From the NCBI RefSeq assembly GCF_000003815.2, contig NC_049984.1, positions 10,976,664-11,040,663 of the forward strand: 64,000 nucleotides of DNA. The letters are read 5' to 3'. A model generated the notes under the pieces. That model saw only the letters and a program-made list of their open reading frames with translations. It searched no databases and was not told the DNA's origin. Shown piece by piece: positions 7,168 to 61,675 of this stretch. This DNA is from Branchiostoma floridae (lineage: Eukaryota > Chordata > Leptocardii > Amphioxiformes > Branchiostomatidae). Position numbers and translations under genes: made by a program. Position 1 is the stretch's first letter. Each line of letters starts with the position of its first letter.

Positions 7168-9740
7168 TCGCTTCTCGCTCTGACATTCATTATACACTAT
7201 ATTCTGTCACTTCTCTGCTGTTCCAGAAGCGAACATAGGAGCGAACTATTACCTGGATGGTACCCAGCCTAAGGTAAACCTACATTTCCCATTGCTTTTT
7301 AGCATCTAGCAACTTCAAACATAACTCACACTTTCCTGGTGTTTGCTTAGCAGAAGCGGCCGAGGCCCGCCCACACGGACCTCTGGAAGCAGCCAGGCAC
7401 CGATTGATCCTATGACGATCTGTCAAACGGTAAAAAAATGACTGCATTTTCATGACAACATAACCGTTGTTTTAAGGGGGTTCAGTTCAAAAGTTGTCTT
7501 TTGTGCTAGGGTCTTGATATCTATATCACATGATAGAGCCAGTTCTGACAATTAAAATAGTTTTTACTTCATATTTCAATGATGAGTTACAAGAATTTCA
7601 TTTCTCAATCAAAACATACAAACCTACGACTATAATTGTTATAACCAATAATAAAATACAACTGTATTATGAATATGAGTACATGAGATGTATGCTACAC
7701 TTTGTTCTGACTATCAGTTTAGAGGCTGTAGATAATGATATGTTACCATCCCTGCCAGCAGCGCGGCCCGTATAGCAGGGGACAACAGTAGCATCCCGGC
7801 AAATAGATCAGGACGCTGCAGGGATGCCCGGATTGCAATAGGGCCACCCTGCAAAAAACATGACTATTCATAAATCTCCAGGCAGATCTACGGGTGGCGA
7901 CTTTAGCTGACAAAGGAGTGTCAGAACACATCTTGGCCAGATAAACTCCTTATGCCACCGATAGATCTGCCTGGAGATTAGACTATTTAGTGGTAGTGGT
8001 ACTGTAACCATGCACCTGCGCCGACCGGGACACTGCCGCGGAGAATAATTTTCGCATTGAAAAATACATGCAAACAGGCAAACTCAGTTTAATAATACGC
8101 AGCCGTTACAAATCTGGAAAGAAAACAAAGGCAAGGGAAAGGAAGAAAGGACGAAAAAGACGACAAAACGTAGGAAAGCATCTAGACGCACCATGGACTG
8201 TCCCGACAAGAAGATGGGCACACCTGGGTACCTGGCCGACACCATTTCAACGTGTTGTAAGACGTCCCTGGTCATGGCTTCTAGGTCCATGTGGTCTCCT
8301 GGAATCCCCTCACTCTGACCATGGCCGACTTGTGTACACGATACGTCATGTTTTAAACCGTCGTTCAATGTTTTAAAAAAAAGCGCTAACTGTGAAACGT
8401 AGATCTAATCTAAGACTTTGTACATTCTGCCTATTTGTCAAAGAAAAAAGACACATAGGTAGAGCTGCCTCGCATAACGGTGAAAATGCGCCGAATCGTT
8501 CTGTAACACACTAACAACTCACATCTTTGTGGCGTCATAATCATGATCAGTACAACAAAGCTGGAACATCACATGCTCAAAATACAGACTGATGTATATG
8601 CCCAGTTTCTCAAAACCAACGCCAAGAAGCACATACCGTGGTCGTGTGAGAAGACCAGTATCCCGTGCTCATTGAGAAGTTGTGCCAAGATGGAGGATAG
8701 TAGACCACAGTGGCACCTTAAGCCATGTGCATGGAATAGAAGTGCTCTAGGGAAGAAAAGACAACGTCATGGTTAAGTTAACATTTTTCAGCTTTATTCT
8801 GTACCCTTCCATGACAAGCCAGTCCTTCAATTAAGGGCACAAACTACACTTTTGAACGGAACCGCTTAAAACGTGCGAGTCCTTTGAACGTCATTTTGAG
8901 ATGTCCTTTACCTTAATTCTATAACACGTTTGTTTATTTGTACTGTCTGCTATATATTGGAGTATATTTCATAACATTGCCATGTCGAGTACAATGACCT
9001 GTTATAGCGAAGACGGTGTTGTCATCTTTGCCGTCAGGAGTTATAAGTTAGTTGCCAATGTAATCTGACCGGTATGGGACAGAGGAATGGATTAGATTCA
9101 AGTAACATCATAACAAACTGGCAAGACAAAGTAAATAGGGCCAAAACATTGAGGGTCATTAGTGACTGACATCGAAAAACTATGATTCACGGTGTCCCTT
9201 AACACAGGATACATCATGGCATTTATAAATATGGACAAGCCACACCTACACGCACAAAAGTAAGCAAAAACATTTCATTTTGTTTAGCCACTTCTATTTG
9301 CGACCTTCGGTCCCTGTGCACACAGTGTGTGGCATTCACATGGAGCTTAGTAGCGTGGAACAGTGCCTGGTACAAGAAAACACAACAGAGACACCTGTGA
9401 AATGTCCTCAGCTATCAAACAAAGTTTAACCTTTAATATAGTGGTCTATGGGAGTCTCTATGGGCACCTAAGACGGTATCTTGCACACTGAAAGCACAGC
9501 TTACTCGAGAATATCACCTTGATTTAGAAGTATGCCATATGCCTGCCTGTTGTCAGTCACAAAATAGCGAACTATTTAAAGTCAAAGTGAAGGAAGTTAC
9601 CTAGGTTTCTCGCCTTCCTTCAGATCGGGCTCCCAAGTCTTGCAGAACAGATACTGCCCGTCTGCGTTCACCATGTGTTGTAGAGTGTTGTAGTTCACCC
9701 CCTGAGGAGTACAACGCACTACATCGTCAGAGCTCGCCAT
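5775..9740 (-). CDS. Monoglyceride lipase-like, complete copy A (8 exons, 309 aa)
   Basis: Predicted serine hydrolase of the monoacylglycerol lipase family, which cleaves monoacylglycerols to glycerol and fatty acid. Exons: 9601-9740, 8637-8746, 8192-8328, 7747-7848, 7330-7419, 6904-6979, 6449-6588, 5775-5909; all junctions are GT-AG and the phases join to 310 codons, close to the 303 residues of the human enzyme. Visible motifs are [14 protein letters not shown] in exon 1, [10 protein letters not shown] across exons 2/3, the nucleophile elbow GQSMGG (Ser128) across exons 3/4, HGENDSVTD (Asp242) in exon 7 and [11 protein letters not shown] (His272) in exon 8, so the triad is present. One oddity is that the usual oxyanion-hole HGxGxHSG reads HGLRCHCG (residues 54-61), as in copy C. 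That may alter activity; substrate is inferred from family only. Confidence 0.9.
6638..6790. repeat. 91-bp tandem duplication in lipase A intron
   Basis: ACGTTAAGGTAGCAAACTTG with GATAGGGTACATG downstream recurs 91 bp further on as ACGTTAGGGTAACAAACTTG with GATAGGGTACATAG. It lies wholly inside the intron between exons 7 and 6. Confidence 0.7.
7123..7164. repeat. (TA)n microsatellite
   Basis: About 21 TA units lie in the intron between exons 6 and 5 of lipase A. Confidence 0.9.
7871..7980. mobile_element. Short foldback/MITE in lipase A intron 3
   Basis: TAAATCTCCAGGCAGATCTA on the left is mirrored by AGATCTGCCTGGAGATTA on the right, giving arms of about 25 bp around a ~55-bp centre, with TAA/TTA-like edges. 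It sits just upstream (minus sense) of the exon 4 acceptor. There is no ORF. Confidence 0.65.
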
Positions 9741-10666
9741 AACAATTCTTTGAGCGGAAATGCTCACAACGTTGGACGGTCGACCCGAGTGAACTTTGAC
9801 CGTGAGTTAACCGCAACGATTGAACGGTTTAATGTACAACAAGTCAATTCGACCATAAAACTACTTACTGTGGCCTTACCTTCGTGCAGAATTGAGCTAT
9901 TGTTTTTGGTCTGTTTGTTTCTGTGTATGTATGTGTGTGTGTGTGTGACTTTTTGTGTGCATTTCTACGAGGAAGGCACTGTATGTATGACCTAAGTTAT
10001 AGGTGGCGCTTTTGGAACTAGAGCACCTGTTGAAATATACTTACTTGTACCGATTGACTCCCATCAACAAGTCTGTCTCTTTATGTCTGTCTCCAAACAA
10101 ATACAACTTTTTTGTTGTTTTATGGGTTTAGCCCTTAGTGTAATATGCAGCCTGACTACATCGAGTCCCCCGCTACCCTTCCACTAGCCAGGGGTCCCAT
10201 ACAGCCCTGGGCAGTGAGAAGATGAGAAGACTGGTGTAACACGTATTTCGTCTATTTCAGTATTTGGTCTAGGCGCCCTTGGGCGTCTGTATATTTGTAA
10301 TTGTAAACCGTAATACACACGTACGTATTACAAAAATATCTATTCCTAATCCACTTTACACATGAACTCATATCAAATAGATTTACAATTAGCATAATTT
10401 GTTGTACGAACAATCTATAATAGAAACTGAAGAAACAAGAGTTCGGAGACCTCATATCTCTACGAAATATTCTGATTATGTAAATGACTTCAACATTTGC
10501 ATAATCTATGCTTAGTTATATACGCCTGTAAATAACCTATGCTGGTCACAGGTTCTTGAGTTATGCACACTACAAAAGTCTGGACACACAGACAGACACA
10601 CACACAGACACACCCAAAACTATATCTCAATTTTTCATGGAGATGAAAATCATAAAGCTTTCTGTT

Positions 10667-31879: not shown

Positions 31880-32436
31880 CTAAGAACCTGATCAATTAGT
31901 CTTTGTTTTTAGATACAATGTGCAAAAATAACACACATCTGTTGTGGTCAAATACACAACATGTTCTTTGAAACACCAAGGAATAACATATCCTGGAACC
32001 TGAAGACTTCACAAATGATCCTAGGAACCTTATCAATTAGTCTTTGTTTCAGATACAATGTGCAAAAATAACACACATCTGTTGTGGTCAAATACACAAA
32101 GTGTTCTTTGAAACACCAAGGAATAACATATCCAGGAACCTGAAGACTTCACAAATGATCCTAGGAACCTTATCAATTAGTCTTTGTTTCAGATACAATG
32201 TGCAAAAATAACACACATCTGTTGTGGTCAAATACACAAAGTGTTCTTTGAAACACCAAGGAATAACATATCCAGGAACCTGAAGACTTCACAAATGATC
32301 CTAGGAACCTTATCAATTAGTCTTTGTTTCAGATACAATGTGCAACAATATCACACATCTGTTGTGGTCAAATACTCAAAGTGTGCACTGAAACACCAAG
32401 GAAGAACAAATCTGGGAACCTGAAGACTTCCCAACA
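31880..32436. repeat. 140-bp tandem repeat, about four copies
   Basis: The unit contains ATCAATTAGTCTTTGTTT, AGATACAATGTGCAAAAATA, ACACACATCTGTTGTGGTCA, GAAACACCAAGGAATAACAT and GGAACCTGAAGACTTCACAA. ATCAATTAG recurs at 31891, 32032, 32172 and 32312 (spacing 141, 140, 140). The inner two copies are almost identical and the outer ones more diverged, as expected from unequal exchange. No ORF spans the array. Confidence 0.95.
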
Positions 32437-46000: not shown

Positions 46001-49000
46001 TTTCTGAGACCAGCATTTTCTCATCAGGCGACTAAAGTCCACACATTCTTGGGGTTCTGTTGGAATGAGACTTTCATCTGGTCTTTGTCCTCCAGTCACA
46101 GCAATCTCAATATGGGCTGAGTTATGAGCATCTGAAACACACACAATATGATTATACATGTATCATACTACTTACAAACCAAAGGCATGATTATAACATC
46201 ATGATACTCTAATACTAAACGTAAGAAACAAAGCTTATGCTGGTTGGGAATTGGAAAATTCTTAGTACATTTAACAATGAAAACTTTTACACATAAATTT
46301 AAAGATTCTCTGTGACTTACGCTCAAATGGTTGTTTCCTTGCAAGGATTTCCCACAGTACAACACCATAGCTGTAACAGACAGAAGACAGCTGTTAAGGA
46401 GCATACAAGTTATGTGCTTTCCTGCAGGAAATTTACATCCGACAAAATGCTACACGCAGTAGAGAACCTATTGGTCTCCTACATGAAAGTACATTATAAT
46501 AGATAAAGCAATGAACTGTTTCTAAATTCACAACATTACCACACTGTAAGATAGCTATGGCACAAACCTGTAAACATCCCAAGGAGTGTCAGGTTTACAG
46601 TTGATATCTTCCCAGGACTCTGGGGGAATATGTGTAACTGTGCCCCCTGCAATGCCTTGATCAGCTATAGATGTCACACCCGTGACGCTTTTCCATCTGG
46701 CAAGTCCAAAATCTGTAATCTGCACAAGAAATATAAAATTTAAAATCTGGAAGCAAGAAATAGACATAATGGTCCTTTTGGAGTAGAAAAGGTACTTTTT
46801 AAAAGTTGACTAACTTTCAAAGAAATCACAGTAAGGAAGACATCATTTTATCATTGTATGGTACCAACAAAACACACTGGCAATTGCTACAACGTAAGTA
46901 CAAGACTAGAAATAAAGCATACTCAAGTCAATACGCGACAATCCAATCTCGTTGGGAGGTCTCGCGAGACTGTAATCTGGCCGCGCGCGCGCGTGATTTG
47001 ACAGTCGGACGGTAACAGCCTTCAGCAGCCCAGCGGCTAACAATGGCTTCTCCCAGCATCGACTCGATCGAGTCAACTTCAGAGATTCGTTGTGCTTTTA
47101 TTTGGCAACATCCGCCGGTAAATCGGCATGCCATGAGCAGATAATATTGTTGTGAACCTATGGACTCGATATCGTGCTGTAAATTTGCAAATTTCTGGTC
47201 ATTTTCACAATTTTTGACGGGCGGTTTATGCTTGCTTGTCGTGAGAAAAACGTGCATATAGGCGCGTCGCCTTACTTGTAGTTACTCGGATATGTTTGGC
47301 TCAAGCCGTAAAAATATCCCACAAAAGCGTACAAGTACCATCATTGGATCCTTGTAGATCCAAACTCGTAAGACTTTCGGCGATTTTGACCGTAAATTAG
47401 TCGATGGCAACATATCGACTTTGGGAGTTCACGCGTACCTGAGTTGGGGAGGGGGGCGTGTTTCCGCGTATATGCGTTCGTTTTGATCAAGGCGGAGTCA
47501 CTTTTCCGACTATGATTTCAGTTTTCGCCAGATGAAACTCCACAAAAACGTGAACATATCGATGTAGGGTCCTTCTGGGTAGAAATCTAGCATGGTTTCA
47601 GCGGCTTTGTGGGCAACTTTTTATTGGTTAACTTTATACGTGATGAGTGGGTGTGTCTGCAAATGTATAACGTTTGGCATTTGCTGTTCTTTTTCAGATC
47701 AACGCGTCGCGATCGAAATTCACATCAGCAGGGAAATACTGCAAATCATATGGATGCAATAGCCGTCAGTCCAAGTGTGTCAATGAAGAGAAAGTGCCAA
47801 CATGCATCATATTTTTCAAGATCCCCCCAAATGTACTTGATGATAACACGTTACTTACTTTAAGCACTGGGATTGTCTGGTTAAAAGACAGCTCGGAAGG
47901 GATAATTTCACCATGAACATGAAATTAGAAATGTGCGTTTTTATACTTTTTAACGGGAACATCTACTGCATGTATTTCCAGTAACGCATTCGTGTATTCA
48001 TTGTGTCCCCATTCAAAGAAAGGACTCACGCTAAAATAGGCAGTCCAAACAAAGGTAGACAGCAGTGCAGCACTCAAGACGTCACACAGGTACCACCACC
48101 AAGTGCAAGGGAATGTCTATTGCTGTAACTTAAATTGGGCGGACTTCGTTGTCTACTTTGGCAGGGATAATTTATTCTGCGAACGAATTAAAGTAGACTC
48201 AGAATGGCAGAAGAAGAATATCCCAAAGCTTGACCACTTTCACAAAACAGCCATATATACTACCGGAGCTGTTCACTCAAAGAGCCAAAGGAGGTAAGAA
48301 ACTCTATGGTATGTATGAAGAAAGACTTCGGAAGTTGTTGATGCAGAGTGTCCAGACCACTGCATCGGCAGAATACAGTGGACTACTATGTATAGCACAG
48401 GGAAGTGGACACCTTACGGCTTACCTGTCTTAGGTCTGAGTAGGACGATGTCTCATTTGTTGCAAAAATTATGCCACACAAAAACAGTCAGAGATGTTGA
48501 AAGTTCACATTTTAATACAATGTACATTTGAATGATTATGTGTATGAAACATTACCATTTCCCAAAAGTATTACTTATCGGATGCTTATTTTCGTCAATA
48601 CTGTAAATGCTGTGAGAACTTGTCTATCATTTGGAAAAATCACTAATGATATATACATGTAATTATCATTTCACAAAAGCATGAATTGCAAAGCTCTACG
48701 AGATCGAGTAAGAACATATGTTAAGACATCTTTTATAAAACATGAAATACGGCTATTGCATCCATATGATTTGCAGTATTTCCCTGATGATGTGAATTTC
48801 GATCGCGACGCGTTGATCTGAAAAAGAACAGCAAATGCCAAACGTTATACATTTGCAGACACACCCACTCATCACGTATAAAGTTAACCAATAAAAAGTT
48901 GCCCACAAAGCCGCTGAAACCATGCTAGATTTCTACCCAGAAGGACCCTACATCGATATGTTCACGTTTTTGTGGAGTTTCATCTGGCGAAAACTGAAAT

Positions 49001-50476
49001 CATAGTCGGAAAAGTGACCCCGTCTTGATCAAAACGAACAAGGAAACACGCCCCCCTCCCCAACTCACGTACGCGTAAACTCCCAAAGGCCGATATGTTG
49101 CCATCGACTAATTTACGGTCAAAATCGCCGAAAGTCTTACGAGTTTGGATCTACAAGGATCCAATGATGGTACTTGTAAGCTTTTGTGGGATATATTTAC
49201 GGCTTGAGCCAAACTTATCCGAGTAACTACAAGTAAGGCGACGCGCCTATATGCACGTTTTTCTCACGACAAGCAAGCATAAACCGCCCGTCAAAAATTG
49301 TGAAAAATGACCAGAAATTTGCAAATTTACAGCACGATATCGAGTCCATAGGTTCACAACAATATTATCTGCTCATGGCATGCCGATTTACCGGCGGATG
49401 TTGCCAAATAATAGCACAACGAATCTCTGAAGTTGACTCGATCGAGTCGATGCTGGGAGAAGCCATTGTTAGCCGCTGGGCTGCTAAAGGCTGTTACCGT
49501 CCGACTGTCAAATCACGCGCGCGCGCGGCCAGATTACAGTCTCGCGAGACCTCCCAACGAGATTGGATTGTCGCGTATTGTAACAAATCCCTTTGTGTTT
49601 TGTTTTGTGTTTGTCTACACACTGTTACTGTTAATCAAGTGTTTTGTCACCTTAACGTGGTATTCTTCATCCAACAAGATGTTCTCAGACTTGAGATCAC
49701 AGTGCAGAATCCTGGGTGCCAGGTTGTGTAGGAAGTTCATCCCCACCGCTGTCTCAAAGGCTATTCTCCACCTGAGCGGCCAGGGGATGTCCACCCCCAG
49801 CAGGACCTTCAGGCTCCCGTTCTCGGCCAGGTCCATGATGAGGCAGTAGAACGTAGGCTCAATACACATCCCATAGAAGTGGATGACGTATTTGAATCTT
49901 GCAGCTTCCAGTTTTTCTGCTTCAAGGTATAGATCTTTCTGTTGCCTAAAAAGAAAAAGAAAAAAAAATGATCAGATTTCACGTTGCTCTCTCACCTTCT
50001 TAAAGATAGCAAAATCATTAACTAGTTACTACCTATTTGTATGTATTTCACATACTGTGCTTTACAAAATAATCATTCAGTTTCATATTCATTATAGCGA
50101 GAAGATGTCGACCATCCTGTTAGCTTAGTACCTTCAGCTAGTTAATTGTATCTTGTTGTTTTTGCATAGGTTTGTTATGTCTGTTATCAGTCATGTCTGT
50201 TATCAGTGACCTGTACCTAGCCCGTCGAGGCATGAATGTACAATAAAGGTCTTTCATCATATATTTTGTATTCAACAGTTTTGATTGATTAGAAAAATAA
50301 GCTTACTTTTCTGTCATAGTCTGCTTGGAGCAAACACACTTGACTGCGACATCCAGGCTCCAGTCAACATGTTTAGCTTTTACAACAAAGCCAAAGCCTC
50401 CACTCCCAAGCAGAGCATTGTCGTAAGTCTGCAGCTTGTCTTTACTTATTACACTGAAACGGCTCTTTGCAGCCAT
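43020..50476 (-). CDS. RIPK1-like kinase: kinase, RHIM-like motif, death domain (10 exons, 539 aa)
   Basis: Predicted receptor-interacting Ser/Thr kinase of cell-death and NF-kB signalling. Exons: 50307-50476, 49651-49945, 46568-46719, 46321-46370, 45976-46131, 45593-45693, 44965-45241, 44283-44435, 43541-43653, 43020-43172; phases join to 540 codons. The kinase (about 15-275) shows GSGGFGFV, VAVK (Lys46), HCDLKSEN (Asp140), DFGLA (Asp158) and DVYSYGVVLWE, so catalytic residues are present; the HRD Arg is Cys. Residues about 350-390 hold three Gln/Gly-rich repeats (QSGQGGQYQPQ). Residues about 413-427 (CQNVIIGDGNVLNVN) fit a RHIM, the amyloid-forming motif, with VIIG instead of V/I-Q-V/I-G. 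The C-terminus (about 452-539) is a death domain (GREWKKLARELDL, ATVGKLAQAF). This domain order is that of RIPK1. The start could follow a 5' UTR exon. Confidence 0.9.
43757..44189. mobile_element. hAT-like MITE in RIPK1-like intron 8
   Basis: The element starts TAGGGCTGGGTATCGGTAC and ends GTACCGGTACCCACCCCTA, a 19-bp inverted repeat with two mismatches. It is flanked by a perfect 8-bp duplication GTTGTAAC (43749-43756, 44190-44197). Internally it has repeats of AGGTCCAGG/GGACCTG. The 3625-4063 element is an older relative in the opposite orientation. Confidence 0.92.
45738..45834. mobile_element. Near-palindromic foldback in RIPK1-like intron 5
   Basis: GCCTGGAGTCCAGCCTTGTC plus TGCTTTAGTCAGCTCCCGAA is mirrored by TTCGGGAGCGGACAAAAGCA plus AACAAGGTTGGACTCCAGGC around a very short loop. 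The arms are about 43 bp and TA flanks both ends. It would fold as a near-perfect hairpin in the pre-mRNA. Confidence 0.85.
47698..47916 (+). pseudogene. THAP-like zinc-finger fragment of the inverted-arm element
   Basis: After a good acceptor (TTGCTGTTCTTTTTCAG) the frame encodes SKFTSAGKYCKSYGCNSRQS and then CIIFFKIPPN. This recalls the start of a THAP DNA-binding domain (C-x2-4-C, then Phe and a Pro-rich AVPTIF-like area). The distal C-x2-H pair is not seen before the stop at 47916, so the domain is incomplete or continues in another exon. Its first third is repeated, inverted, in the right arm (about 48749-48830). Confidence 0.5.
48088..48297 (+). pseudogene. YqaJ-like exonuclease fragment of the inverted-arm element
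   Basis: After a possible acceptor (CGTCACACAG) the frame reads YHHQVQGNVYC, then WADFVVYFG, then ERIKVDSEWQ and IPKLDHFH. QVQG followed by a DFVVY strand and a late PKL-x-HF segment is the pattern of YqaJ/lambda-exonuclease-type nucleases carried by many animal mobile elements. The match continues in the next frame (ILPELFTQRAKGGKKLYG, about 48256-48310), so a frameshift near 48255 breaks it. The upstream catalytic half was not found. Confidence 0.55.
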
Positions 50477-56700: not shown

Positions 56701-59700
56701 TTCAGTTTCCTTTGTTCAACTGTATTGTAATATGTATCACTAGATTTTTGGCTAGCCTAAAAAAAATTACAAAAAAAAAAAAAGATATCCCCTACCTACC
56801 GACCCTAATTTTTTCAGGACTGAAACAGGAAACACAACATTTTTTTTCCTAGGCCTAATGAAAATCTGTTATCATGCACACATCTGAAATCCTGATCAAT
56901 GCTCAGCAGTGCCCTACCTTCCATGGTTCTTCCTCTGGCGTGCCCCTGTTGTGGGTCTGAATGACCAGGAGTTTTCCTGCACCGTCAGCGAGAACACACC
57001 AGCCGCGAGACGGGAAGTGTAGAGTGATGTTGTGTTTAACACCTTGTGGTTCATCACAGGGAATCTTCAGTACTGGTTTGGGAGGGTTGATCTGAGTGTC
57101 CTTTATACATGTTCATGAAAAAAAAAGCAATGATTGATACATTCATTTGCAAAGCAATAAAATTAGCTACAAGTAATTGATTTATATCTATTACATTACA
57201 TATCAGCACACACATGGTCAAATATTTGACTTTTAAGTTGAAGGTAGATGTCATATCTTTTAACATACCATATCTAAATATTTACACTTGTTCGCAGTTC
57301 TAAAGCTATCTTAATTATACTTTACTGTATGTTCTTCTCACCAGTATAACTTTGATCTGCTGTACAGTGTGTTTGTTGTCCACATAGTACACAGAGTCAG
57401 GGTTCCACTGGTCCAGAGCCAGGTGGTTGTGGATCCCAAAGGCTCGGATATGCTGGTAGGTGTACTCCTCCTCATCCAACTTCACATCATGGATACCTGT
57501 AAGTAACGTTTGTCAACAAAATATTATAAGTAAGGAGACAACAATAGATTTGAAATTTTGACCCAACCCCCCTGTCTGATCCAGATTTGTTTGACCCAAC
57601 CCCGTCTGATCCAGGTTTGTCTGACCCAACCCCCCTATCCAATCCACATTTTTGACCCACCCCCTATCCAATCCAACCTCTATCCGCCCCCCATTCTCCT
57701 TTATTTTTGGAATAGCCCGACTACGTGAAGAGAATGATATCTACAAGCATGGGAACACACAGTCTCAAACGTAGGAAACAGGAATTGCACATATTTCTAA
57801 AGCAGTATTTTTAATCGCCCCTTTAGCTGTTTATGAAATGATTTTCATGGGAAGCATAATTTTGCACACTTTGTTGGGCGTCACATGGACGTCGTGATAA
57901 CGATTTTCACTCACTCTGAATCCAATACAATCTTCTTGCTCTAACGATAACAGGGTTCTAGCTAGTGCATTTTAGCGTACTGGGCCCCTACGCTAAAATT
58001 TGTGACCCCTACGCTAAAATAAGGGCCACTACGCTAATTTTTAACTAGTGTAGGAGCTAGGTTCCGGTAAGCGATTTGCAGAGAATCGAACGGGGTGAGA
58101 CTGTTCACGCAGTGAAGGAAATCGCGCGGGTTCGATTCTCTTCACTTGGATGCGGAGCGCGCACGGCGATGGTGAGCCTACACTATCGTGCGAGACTATT
58201 CCCCTGGTGATGAAACGCGCACGAGCGCGATTCTCATCACTTTAAGGCGGAGCGCGCACGGCGATCGTGAGCCAATACTACCGGCCTACTAGACAACTTA
58301 AACGTTCGAATACTAGTATCTTCACTTCAAGGCGTCGCGCGAACGCCCGTCATTTTGAAAGACGTTGGGTACGGGTGCTGACACATTTTTGACAGCGATA
58401 CTTGTCGATAACGTATAGTAAGACTCACTCTGAATTACTTCTCATTTCTGAGTTGGAATTTAACCCTTCGCCGAGAATGTAGTAACGTTACTAATCACGT
58501 AAGTCGGCAACAAAACAGAGACAAATAGTTCACGTAACACCAACATTGTTTTTTTTCCTACTAAAACCTTCTACATAACCGCCTTACATACCACTGCAAA
58601 TTCATAACATGAAATATATACAAATACATCATACCTATCCTGTGTATTCAGTTTCTAACTACATAGTAGAACTAGAAGTTATGTTAGTTAAGCCAACAGA
58701 ACTTGAACAGATACGCAGAGATTAAAATCTCAGAGTATGGCTGCGTCGGTCCACTGCCCGACGACCAGGAACGTCCGATGGCGACGCTCCGACCCAGGAA
58801 CAGAAACTTCATGCCGAGTTGTACCCTTGAAATGCCTTGACGACCAGCCAGCGGATAAAACCCAAATTCCTATCTACCGATATACTACTACCGATGTAGC
58901 TATACAGCTAGCGATGATTAACTAAGGGATATCAACTTATCTAGAAATAGTAACTGAAAGTAGCCGGTAAAAATTGGAAAGGTCTATTATTATAGCGGAT
59001 AAACGTCTCACATGGGTGCCTGGTTAAGTTTATTAAAGGAAACAAAGTGACAATTTAAATATTTCATACGGTTGTTAAATGTTGCTCCATATTCAAGGAA
59101 GTTGGTCAAATTACTTATATTTTGTAAAAAGTTTATTTGATATATCTTGATACGCTTCTCCCCTGCTATTATAATTAGAACGTCCCCTAAATCGTGGGAA
59201 TCCCCAGTACAGAAGTTCGCTACATGGAAGTTGTACTAGGTGGCGGTCCTTTGATCGAGTATCATGTGCCGCGCCGACGTCAATCAATTTTCAAAGCACA
59301 ACTGCGTGTCATGCAATGCATGACGGTATAGCATCAGTTGTCGGTAGAAATAAATATTTGTGTGCCTTGTAGTAAATGCACCAAACATTAGTGTCTTCTC
59401 CCTTTAAACTGGTGCATGGGTAATGTTTTGTAAGAAATGTGGTGAGAATGGGTATCAGTCTAAAATGTACACTTTGAAGGGATAGTCGATATCGACGGCG
59501 TGGGACGGACAGGATGCCCACGAAAGTGCGTGCGTCGCCCGTCTGAAAAAAGGTTTTCATGTACAGGTATCATTTCTATATGTTCTTTACTGCGCTGTAT
59601 ATAAACGAGACTGATATAATTATGTGTAATCACTTGGAAAAGTAAATAATACACACATGCGGTTTCATACATGTACATCGTCTGAAGGAAAATGTAACAG

Positions 59701-61675
59701 GAAATCGCCTGTGGGAGAAACGTCCACAAAGACGGGAAAAGACATGATAGATAGGAAATGATGATAGGAAATATATGTAAGGAAACTTCTAGAAAATGTT
59801 TCCAGGGTACTTATTATTAGCATTGGGTACTTTGATAGACTTTGAGACTTTAAATGTACTTAGCTTTAATATGCACTACCACTAAGGAAGATATTCATAC
59901 AAAGACGAAATAGATTAGAATGAAAGTTTCCGTAACAAAATGACCGGACCCGTTCACAAATCGGCTACGTATGAAATTTCAAACGTAACAGCAGTCGTTG
60001 GGATTGTCATGCCTTATAGGACTACACAGCTAGCCGACTCGGCGGTCCGATAAGGTCAAGGCCATCGTGCCCCGCTCAGAACGCACCGAGACGCCGGCGC
60101 TATAAAATACCTGCAAAGAAAAAAGTTAAAGTTTTAAGTCATGAATTGACTAGAGCTTCCAGATCAATAAAATTGCGACTTAGTAAACTTCATACGTCGG
60201 TAGGTATGGCCAAAGAGGTTATATAAGCATAACCTACTTGGTATGGCATTTTCGCCTGAGCGACAGCCAGGCAACTTTTAACAGGGAATATCCATATCCA
60301 CAGCTGAAGATTTCACATTAAAAACACGATTTCCAGCGAAGTTTCCTGCCACGCCTGGTGCATGATGGTATAGCTTGGGTGGGAAAAGCCGCCATTTTCT
60401 TGTTTTGTTAACGCTACGTCGCAGCGTAAGTGAGCAAACCCGCTGTTGTGTTACTGGAGTATGGGCAATGTTTGGCGAGGAATATAATTATGCGTATCTA
60501 TAGATAATATACACCCATGAAAGAACATTGGACACTTTCATTTTATTTTTCAATTCGACTTTTATGTCCACGAACCAGACCGGAAGAGTCACTCAAAAAC
60601 TAGTATACGATCTCAGAGTCAGAGTCAAAATACGTATAGGTAATTACGTAAGCTTCGAGTATTTCAAATATACAGAAACAGAGCATCTTCATGAAGACCA
60701 AGAAGCTTAGTAACGTAATATGGTTCATAATGTCTTTTAGTTTTTAGGATTGTCAATTGCTTTGACTACAGCGAAACGACTCGGGTGGACTGACGGCCGG
60801 GGCCGACAAGGTCACTGTGCGCGGCTCCGCTCAGTGAGCGCACCCAAGTTCGCCGACGCTATGAAAATATTTGCCTAGCAAAGTGAAAATTATAGTCATG
60901 AGATCGACTAGAGCTCCAAGGTCGTTAAAAGTGTTCTACGAGCCCAATCTACACAAATGATGTACTGAGTATATGTGGTGCCTAAACTAGGGGATGAGTT
61001 GTCCTGATTGACTGGGGACGAATTGTACCAGGTGCCGAGTTGTCCTGATACCGCCGTGCGCGCTCCGCCTTCAAGTGATGAGAATCGCGCTCGTGCGCGT
61101 TTCATCACCCGGGGAATCGTTTCGCACGGTAGTACAGGCTCACCATCGCCGTGCGCGCTCCGCATCCAAGTGAAGAGAATCGAACCCGCGCGATTTCCTT
61201 CACTGCGTGAACAGTCTCACCCCGTTCGATTCTCTGCAAATCGCTTACCTGTTCTTACCTGAGTGTAGTGGTGCTTTGCTGTCATATGCTTGTTCAACAA
61301 TGACTAATCAATGTCTGAACAATGAAAAATGATGATATGCCACTCAAAACTGACCCAAAAATCCTAACTTTTAACTCTACATCTTCAAATCTTACCATGG
61401 AAGGACCAAGACCCCCCTTCCACACCAATCTCATCTCCTGATTAGTCGCTTCGCTACCATGCCATTCCCACTACGCTAAAATAAAATCCTGGCTAGAACC
61501 CTGGATAAGTAAGAAGGTTTACTAGATATTGTTAAGTTTTTTTTTTTGTCCTACCTGTACTTAGGGACACAGTGTACTGAGGAAGCGGCTCCAAAGACAG
61601 CTTGTATCCATCAAAATTGGCATCGATGAGAGCTCGGTCTGGCTTCAGCGTGTGAGTTGCGTGTACAGCAGCCAT
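53733..61675 (-). CDS. NUDCD1: NudC domain-containing protein 1 (9 exons, 586 aa)
   Basis: Orthologue of vertebrate NUDCD1 (583 residues in human), a NudC-family cochaperone-type protein with a central CS/p23-like domain. Exons: 61555-61675, 57342-57496, 56918-57091, 56170-56350, 55708-55896, 55241-55451, 54630-54774, 54361-54486, 53733-54191; every junction is GT-AG and phases join to 587 codons. Recognisable segments: FDGYKLSLEPLPQY (exon 1), AFGIHNHLALDQWNPDSVYY (exon 2), FPSRGWCVLADGAGKLLVIQ (exon 3), VVLEWVTLAKQDG (exon 4), YAAIECGGRGLFIA (exon 5), the CS domain PAYLWGQTTEDVSVKFTVDE (exon 6), KPYNTQELEECDAF (exon 8), and CLCLRHDVDALVWQP plus FNALGYVQASKRD (exon 9). Intron 1 (4.06 kb) is almost filled by an inverted-repeat element. 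Confidence 0.95.
56483..56858. mobile_element. TIR element (MITE) in NUDCD1 intron 3
   Basis: AGGCCTAGAGAAAAAAATGT plus TGTGTTTCCTGTTTCC on the left mirrors GGAAACACAACATTTTTTTT plus CCTAGGCCT on the right, about 35 bp of inverted repeat. GCCGACCCTAGA and ACCGACCCTAAT are additional shared blocks. It is 376 bp without an ORF and ends 60 bp from exon 3. Confidence 0.8.
57558..57690. repeat. ~38-bp minisatellite in NUDCD1 intron 1
   Basis: TTGACCCAACCCCCCTGTCT and GATCCAGATTTGT recur about four times with changes, ending in CCACCCCCTATCCAATCCAA. Confidence 0.8.
57951..61503. mobile_element. 3.55-kb inverted-repeat element in NUDCD1 intron 1 (hAT-like ends)
   Basis: The ends are CAGGGTTCTAGCTAGTGCAT with TTTTAGCGTA on the left and TACGCTAAAATAAAATCCTG with GCTAGAACCCTG on the right, closely related to the hAT MITE at 4484-4838. 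A long subterminal inverted repeat (about 58076-58275 and 61066-61251) contains GGTAAGCGATTTGCAGAGAA, TTCACGCAGTGAAGGAAATC and two tandem GCGGAGCGCGCACGGCGAT blocks. The flanks share only GATAA (57946-57950, 61504-61508) rather than a clear 8-bp duplication. The ~2.8-kb centre has no recognisable transposase. It includes two diverged direct repeats (about 60000-60170 and 60760-60925) with CGCTATAAAATA and CGCTATGAAAATA. It is probably a composite or nested non-autonomous element. Confidence 0.75.

Follow-up and report, generated by a model that had tools for sequence, protein, structure and literature searches.

Our analysis of a 64,000-nt window of the Branchiostoma floridae genome revealed a 2,644-bp repeat (46933-49576) that is, with high confidence, a non-autonomous ISL2EU DNA transposon: a deletion derivative of a parent with long terminal inverted repeats (TIRs), spread by cut-and-paste transposition and probably moved in trans. 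As a kind, an ISL2EU element is ordinary, and it is the long-TIR architecture that is uncommon. Two inverted arms of ~830 bp, 97.25% identical (blastn), surround a core of 985 bp (982 nt between the paired blocks), which bears out the near-identical arms and core described in the initial annotation. The arms pair in four ungapped blocks within 46929-47766 and 48749-49580 with a complementarity of 96-99%. The borders previously given as 46929-49580 enclose the element, while their outermost bases belong to the AAT/ATT target plus a chance C/G match. The element sits between two exons of a minus-strand protein-kinase-like gene (Table 1).

Table 1. Features in and around the window element (positions in the window)
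Feature	Position	Strand	Basis
Second kinase exon	46555-46809	-	no Pfam hit; assigned by eye from DFG motif
Left AT of target-site duplication (target A|AT|T)	46931..46932	.	copy borders and empty sites
Non-autonomous ISL2EU element	46933..49576	.	AAT...ATT borders in 20/20 two-ended copies, and empty sites
THAP-side long terminal inverted repeat	46933..47766	+	88% to full-length relative L029
Palindrome TCTCGCGAGA near left end	46960..46969 (mirror 49540-49549)	.	50/50 examined arms, which are related copies
Remnant of candidate leader exon 1 (MASPSIDSIESTSE), within arm	47043..47084	+	homologous ATG in both L029 TIRs
THAP exon 5' part, broken	47698..47919	+	alignment to L029 THAP exon
Junction sequence, ~83 bp	47920..48002	.	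no good match in relative
YqaJ gene C-terminal part, broken	48003..48423	+	alignment to L029; coding end (48423) estimated from L029 stop
Parental intergenic 3' sequence	48424..48748	.	relative positions ~3714 to 3412
YqaJ-side long terminal inverted repeat	48749..49576	-	matches relative's left arm, positions 855 to 2
Mirror copy, candidate leader exon 1	49425..49466	-	sequence
Right AT of target-site duplication	49577..49578	.	copy borders and empty sites
Kinase exon	49615-49971	-	Pkinase 1.3e-14

Copies in the genome and target site

A search of the B. floridae genome (513 Mb, 431 contigs) with one arm confirmed the repeat, the best 40 of 77 candidates matching the arm, and the core was found at at least 31 places (the window and 30 others; best 40 of 183 candidates), in some of them truncated. 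The 41 rows of the core search comprise 32 that represent the 31 family places, three that belong to a full-length relative and six matches to a ~70-bp insert. With 40 scored matches to the arm and a core that recurs at at least 31 places, the arms are not a product of chance. Of the 31 loci, 27 span one internal junction and 29 the other; being common to most loci, these junctions point to the spread of one founder. The cores share a mean identity of 98.1% (30 cores, gaps ignored, one short-core locus dropped), and between the window and L025 cores identity reaches 99.86% over the ~750 bp that L025 retains in one piece; such high identity indicates that the spread was recent.

Both ends were recognised by script in 20 of the 31 loci, and all 20 copies start with AATACGCGAC, end with CGCGTATT and read AAT-element-ATT, the element itself starting ACGCG. 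The bases outside AAT and ATT vary among loci, except for an excess of C at the left (13/20). Empty sites were searched for with the joined flanks of ten copies as queries, the best 40 of 567 candidates being scored. Among the matches listed, 21 rows span the junction (18 for L016, one for L009 and two for L017), and the other seven queried copies, the window site included, yielded no empty site. The eight paralogous empty sites examined (six for L016, one each for L009 and L017) read AATT in seven cases and AATC in one, with no base gained or lost at the junction. The target-site duplication is AT (2 bp) within A|AT|T, AATT becoming AAT-element-ATT. The initial annotation had reported no target duplication, which copy borders and empty-site alignment now correct; the duplication was overlooked because AAT and ATT, as reverse complements, resemble inverted-repeat sequence, and an A|AT|T target makes this misreading easy. 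One copy (L024:2233-4853) carries at both ends different, nearly matching first ~27 bases (AATACGGGACCCTC...), its termini having changed together.

A full-length relative and the assignment to ISL2EU

Core pieces led to a full-length relative (L029+L044, C1:10579214-10587047), which measures 7,834 bp between the target bases, has 800-bp TIRs that are 99.4% identical and ends in ACGCG like the window element. This relative carries a THAP exon (Pfam THAP, 1.6e-8), an HTH+DDE exon with 446 open codons (DDE_Tnp_4 1.6e-50, HTH_Tnp_4 1.4e-16) and, convergent with this transposase gene on the opposite strand, a YqaJ exon with 564 open codons (YqaJ 1.4e-12, Viral_alk_exo 2.4e-9). The exon preceding the YqaJ exon is 39.5% alike to an exon with a SAP hit in a second two-gene element (L045) and contains what we take to be a SWIM-like CxCPxG motif; this stretch gave no Pfam hit. 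Within the YqaJ exon, at about 7860-8390 of locus L029, lies a long repeat of DVPATASSS-like units. L045 has the same layout, with THAP, HTH and DDE domains, a transposase 61% identical to that of L029, a YqaJ domain (3.8e-16) and a 306-bp inverted repeat around its genes; its true outer ends were not found. The THAP, HTH and DDE domains of both elements occupy separate open stretches whose joining by splicing is putative, and inspection by eye found no clean in-phase GT-AG junction between the THAP and DDE exons of L029.

The window element is 85-88% identical to L029 at the nucleotide level. Pfam searches on the five broken window fragments alone gave no domain at E<=1, and the THAP and YqaJ remnants proposed in the initial annotation are supported by the Pfam domains of the full-length relative together with the 85-88% alignment, not by the window fragments. 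The profile search on longer-core copies that it had called for supports both domains in L029, where both frames belong to one element and not to unrelated nested insertions. Among the matches listed from genome searches with the transposase and YqaJ proteins, L029 is the only close full-length relative; none of the full-length elements exceeded 88% identity, so that the parent itself was not found. The transposase search (best 95 of 165) gave a next near-full match at 61% amino acid identity, then ~44%, with fragments up to 71%; outside the 2.65-kb family, the YqaJ search (best 77 of 1198) gave a next long match at 52% (267 aa) and, among the matches listed, shorter ones up to 65%.

By its target site, transposase domains and gene pair, as read from sequence, the family belongs to the ISL2EU group of PHIS (PIF/Harbinger-ISL2EU-Spy), so that the superfamily left open by the initial annotation can be named. 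The DDE alignment compares five copies from this genome with each other. According to the passages available of PMC4482050, ISL2EU elements duplicate AT within A|AT|T, and their THAP+YqaJ gene pair was described in 2015. The same target was observed here in all 20 two-ended copies and at the empty sites, and L029 and L045 combine a THAP+HTH+DDE transposase with a YqaJ second ORF; in the window copy, these genes are reduced to a THAP fragment and a broken C-terminal YqaJ part. The earlier suggestion that one element encodes both THAP and YqaJ thus holds in L029, but the pairing is not novel. In contrast to the ISL2EU elements in these passages, the TIRs are long (~830 bp in the window, 800 bp in L029, against 6-259 bp in 25 published families, a descriptive range rather than a criterion), they begin with ACGCG where published ones "usually" begin with GG, and a candidate start codon and leader exon precede both genes; unlike a complete ISL2EU element, the window copy is a deletion derivative. 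In the part of PMC9179366 available, Han et al. are cited as having indicated ISL2EU in amphioxus, whereas the authors' own analysis did not detect it.

A new transposon class in which the YqaJ nuclease itself transposes would fit the recurrence of YqaJ matches at 29 places outside the 2.65-kb family among the matches listed, but it is extremely improbable given the DDE_Tnp_4 transposase and HTH within the same element (L029) and a gene pair and target site that match ISL2EU as presented in PMC4482050. The passages of that source give the function of the extra ORFs of the PHIS superfamily as unknown. The transposase is expected to be the DDE protein and not the YqaJ nuclease. The 29 places derive from the listed protein matches, with matches to the repeat stretch and to the N-terminal part excluded; 20 of them have an ISL2EU-type DDE within 6 kb, the two genes being convergent in 17 and divergent in three, and for the other nine no DDE was seen within 6 kb among the matches listed.

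Origin of the window copy and possible exchange between arms

Aligned to the relative, element positions 1-991 correspond to 2-1010 (88%), and positions 1075-1387, 1459-1822 and 1828-2652 correspond, reversed, to 4074-3748, 3753-3412 and 855-2. Read in reversed order, the element starts with the left TIR; past a deletion follow the YqaJ 3' end and intergenic sequence, both oriented as in the parent, and past a second deletion the right TIR, which continues into the THAP exon. Both arms of the window copy come from the THAP side: in the relative, the right TIR ends near position 800, only a little way into exon 2, and the YqaJ-side arm of the window copy goes ~56 bp (relative's numbering) past this limit into the THAP exon. 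This structure accounts for the two oppositely oriented occurrences of "THAP" that had been noticed before; the THAP-like start belongs to the arm, where exon 2 begins at 47698, and its mirror image begins at 48817 on the opposite strand. The YqaJ remnant retains 80% amino acid identity over residues 445-536, with one internal TAG and a ~71-bp insert at about 48316-48386; ~70-bp matches to this insert (88-91%) occur at six other genome places among the matches listed.

That both arms end in THAP-side sequence, the YqaJ-side one ~56 bp beyond the TIR limit, would also be expected had they arisen as a Mu killer-like or foldback structure, through a new inverted duplication of the 5' end of an element with short TIRs. 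L029, though, already has 800-bp, 99.4%-identical TIRs at both ends, and L045 has its 306-bp inverted repeat around the genes, so this origin is largely refuted and we regard it as very unlikely. Because L029 already possesses such inverted ends, the arms are inherited long TIRs; the inverted duplication proposed in the initial annotation fails for the arms and survives only for the ~56-bp YqaJ-side extension copied from the THAP side. On the favoured reading, the long-TIR parent had inverted ends of ~0.8 kb and, between them, one gene for a THAP-HTH-DDE transposase and, convergent with it, one for YqaJ. Most of both genes was lost and a segment with the YqaJ 3' end kept between two THAP-side arms, probably through interrupted gap repair: since the TIRs match, the left one could have served as template while the right end was copied inward, and the copying would have overrun the TIR limit into the THAP exon, which takes one extra step. 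The deleted copy then multiplied by cut-and-paste transposition, with insertion at A|AT|T and duplication of AT, and was probably mobilised in trans by a DDE transposase that full-length relatives supplied.

Comparison of 50 arms with at least 780 aligned bp (shorter arms of the 31 loci dropped) separated THAP-side from YqaJ-side arms at 31 alignment columns, which include adjacent columns of single indels, so that independent differences are fewer. Block switches to the other arm type are clear by eye in the window copy, L011, L014, L020 and L022; the mixed state of L019, L023, L024, L033, L036 and L038 can be ancestral and was not counted. Arms within an element are 97.4% identical (21 elements), opposite arms of different elements 96.8%, and same-side arms of different elements 97.5% and 98.0%. 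The pattern fits occasional arm-to-arm conversion and also exchange between elements, and a same-side identity at least as high as that within elements counts against strong homogenising.

Candidate shared gene heads and related loci

Both TIRs of L029 hold ATG GCG TCT ... GAG (MASPSVNSIESTSE, possibly longer), an intron-like stretch and then TTCTTTTTCAG|ATCAACG. A few bases past ATCAACG the two sides diverge into THAP sequence (INASRSKTKFTSAGKYCKAYGC) versus INVSGTESVLDMTTAVEDPPC followed by GTAAGT, and both head joins are in phase on paper. The L045 inverted repeat ends right after ATGGAAGATGCTCAAACAACAT; should this ATG serve as the start on both sides, both gene products would have MEDAQTT as their first residues. 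Two two-gene elements thus have, inside their inverted repeat, a candidate start codon and first codons before both genes, and one of them (L029) a candidate intron 1 and 3' splice site as well. Transposase and nuclease may therefore share a promoter and an N-terminus: in a full element, both genes would obtain their promoter, start codon, leader exon and first 3' splice site from the TIR. The palindrome TCTCGCGAGA, which we take to be a BANP/Kaiso promoter motif, lies ~73 bp ahead of the leader ATG and occurs in L029 in a form with one change (TCTCGCGAGG). After exon 1 the arms read ATTCGT in place of GTTAGT, which was considered as the loss of a splice donor; this reading was dropped, as L029 and the window alike have a second in-phase GT 33 nt further downstream.

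We tentatively suggest, at slightly below even probability, a long-TIR branch of ISL2EU whose ends are duplicated gene heads common to both genes. Shared heads would then force co-expression and an identical N-terminal peptide in both proteins, arm exchange would keep both heads alike, and deleted derivatives would be transcribable 0.8-kb hairpins against both genes at once. With nuclease and transposase wired to one head, both would probably be needed together, in a fixed ratio.

The MuDR transposase belongs to another family than that of ISL2EU. In its architecture, MuDR may be regarded as a close functional parallel, with two convergent genes and promoters in TIRs of ~215 bp, and the Mu elements of maize likewise comprise diverse elements with common TIRs (PMC3440606). 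The passages available of that source do not state that the MuDR TIRs encode a shared N-terminal exon, and those of the ISL2EU literature contain no mention of TIR-borne shared leader exons. Mu killer resembles the present copies in that its inverted arms comprise a TIR and the 5' part of the transposase gene; it is one rearranged locus, whereas a mobile family of at least 31 copies is found here. Mu killer is also the proposed precedent (PMC3440606) for the idea that such copies are hairpin sources, transcription of the arms (e.g., within the kinase intron) yielding dsRNA that silences full-length elements. The long, near-perfect arms with their candidate leader region and the insertion between kinase exons agree with this idea, which we nevertheless consider unlikely: full elements can be scarce for many other reasons, and PMC3440606, in the part available, disputes read-through as the Mu killer trigger.

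The shared-head design is not general, as the related locus L046 has no long inverted ends, and no long TIR was found around the genes of L046, L047 or L048 either. In L046, extended 3 kb to the left and 6 kb to the right, no inverted repeat >50 bp was found within or around the genes, and only a 93-bp inverted pair lies further left; in L047 a 44-bp inverted pair of uncertain terminal position encloses the genes; in L048 no inverted pair encloses them. At about 507-520 of L047, whose ISL2EU-type transposase is 40% identical, stands AATACGCGAG, the terminal motif of L029; a right end matching it was not found in this locus. Upstream of its YqaJ exons, L060 (YqaJ ~61% aa) shows 72% similarity to TIR positions 211-297; no second arm was found there, and the 201-bp inverted pair of this locus is situated elsewhere. 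In L061, a fragment of YqaJ is accompanied by a short piece of DDE.

Other repeats were noted in the window as well. Direct repeat blocks at 1-1175 and 8663-9854, ~8.65 kb apart and 83-97% alike, suggest a tandem duplication. A tandem repeat at 31907-32434 has a spacing of 140 bp and three overlapping 248-nt copies that are 94-98% like the first. An inverted pair at 58055-58263 and 61052-61260 (209 nt, 94% complementary, with 2,788 nt between the two copies and tandem units nearby) is possibly another transposon.
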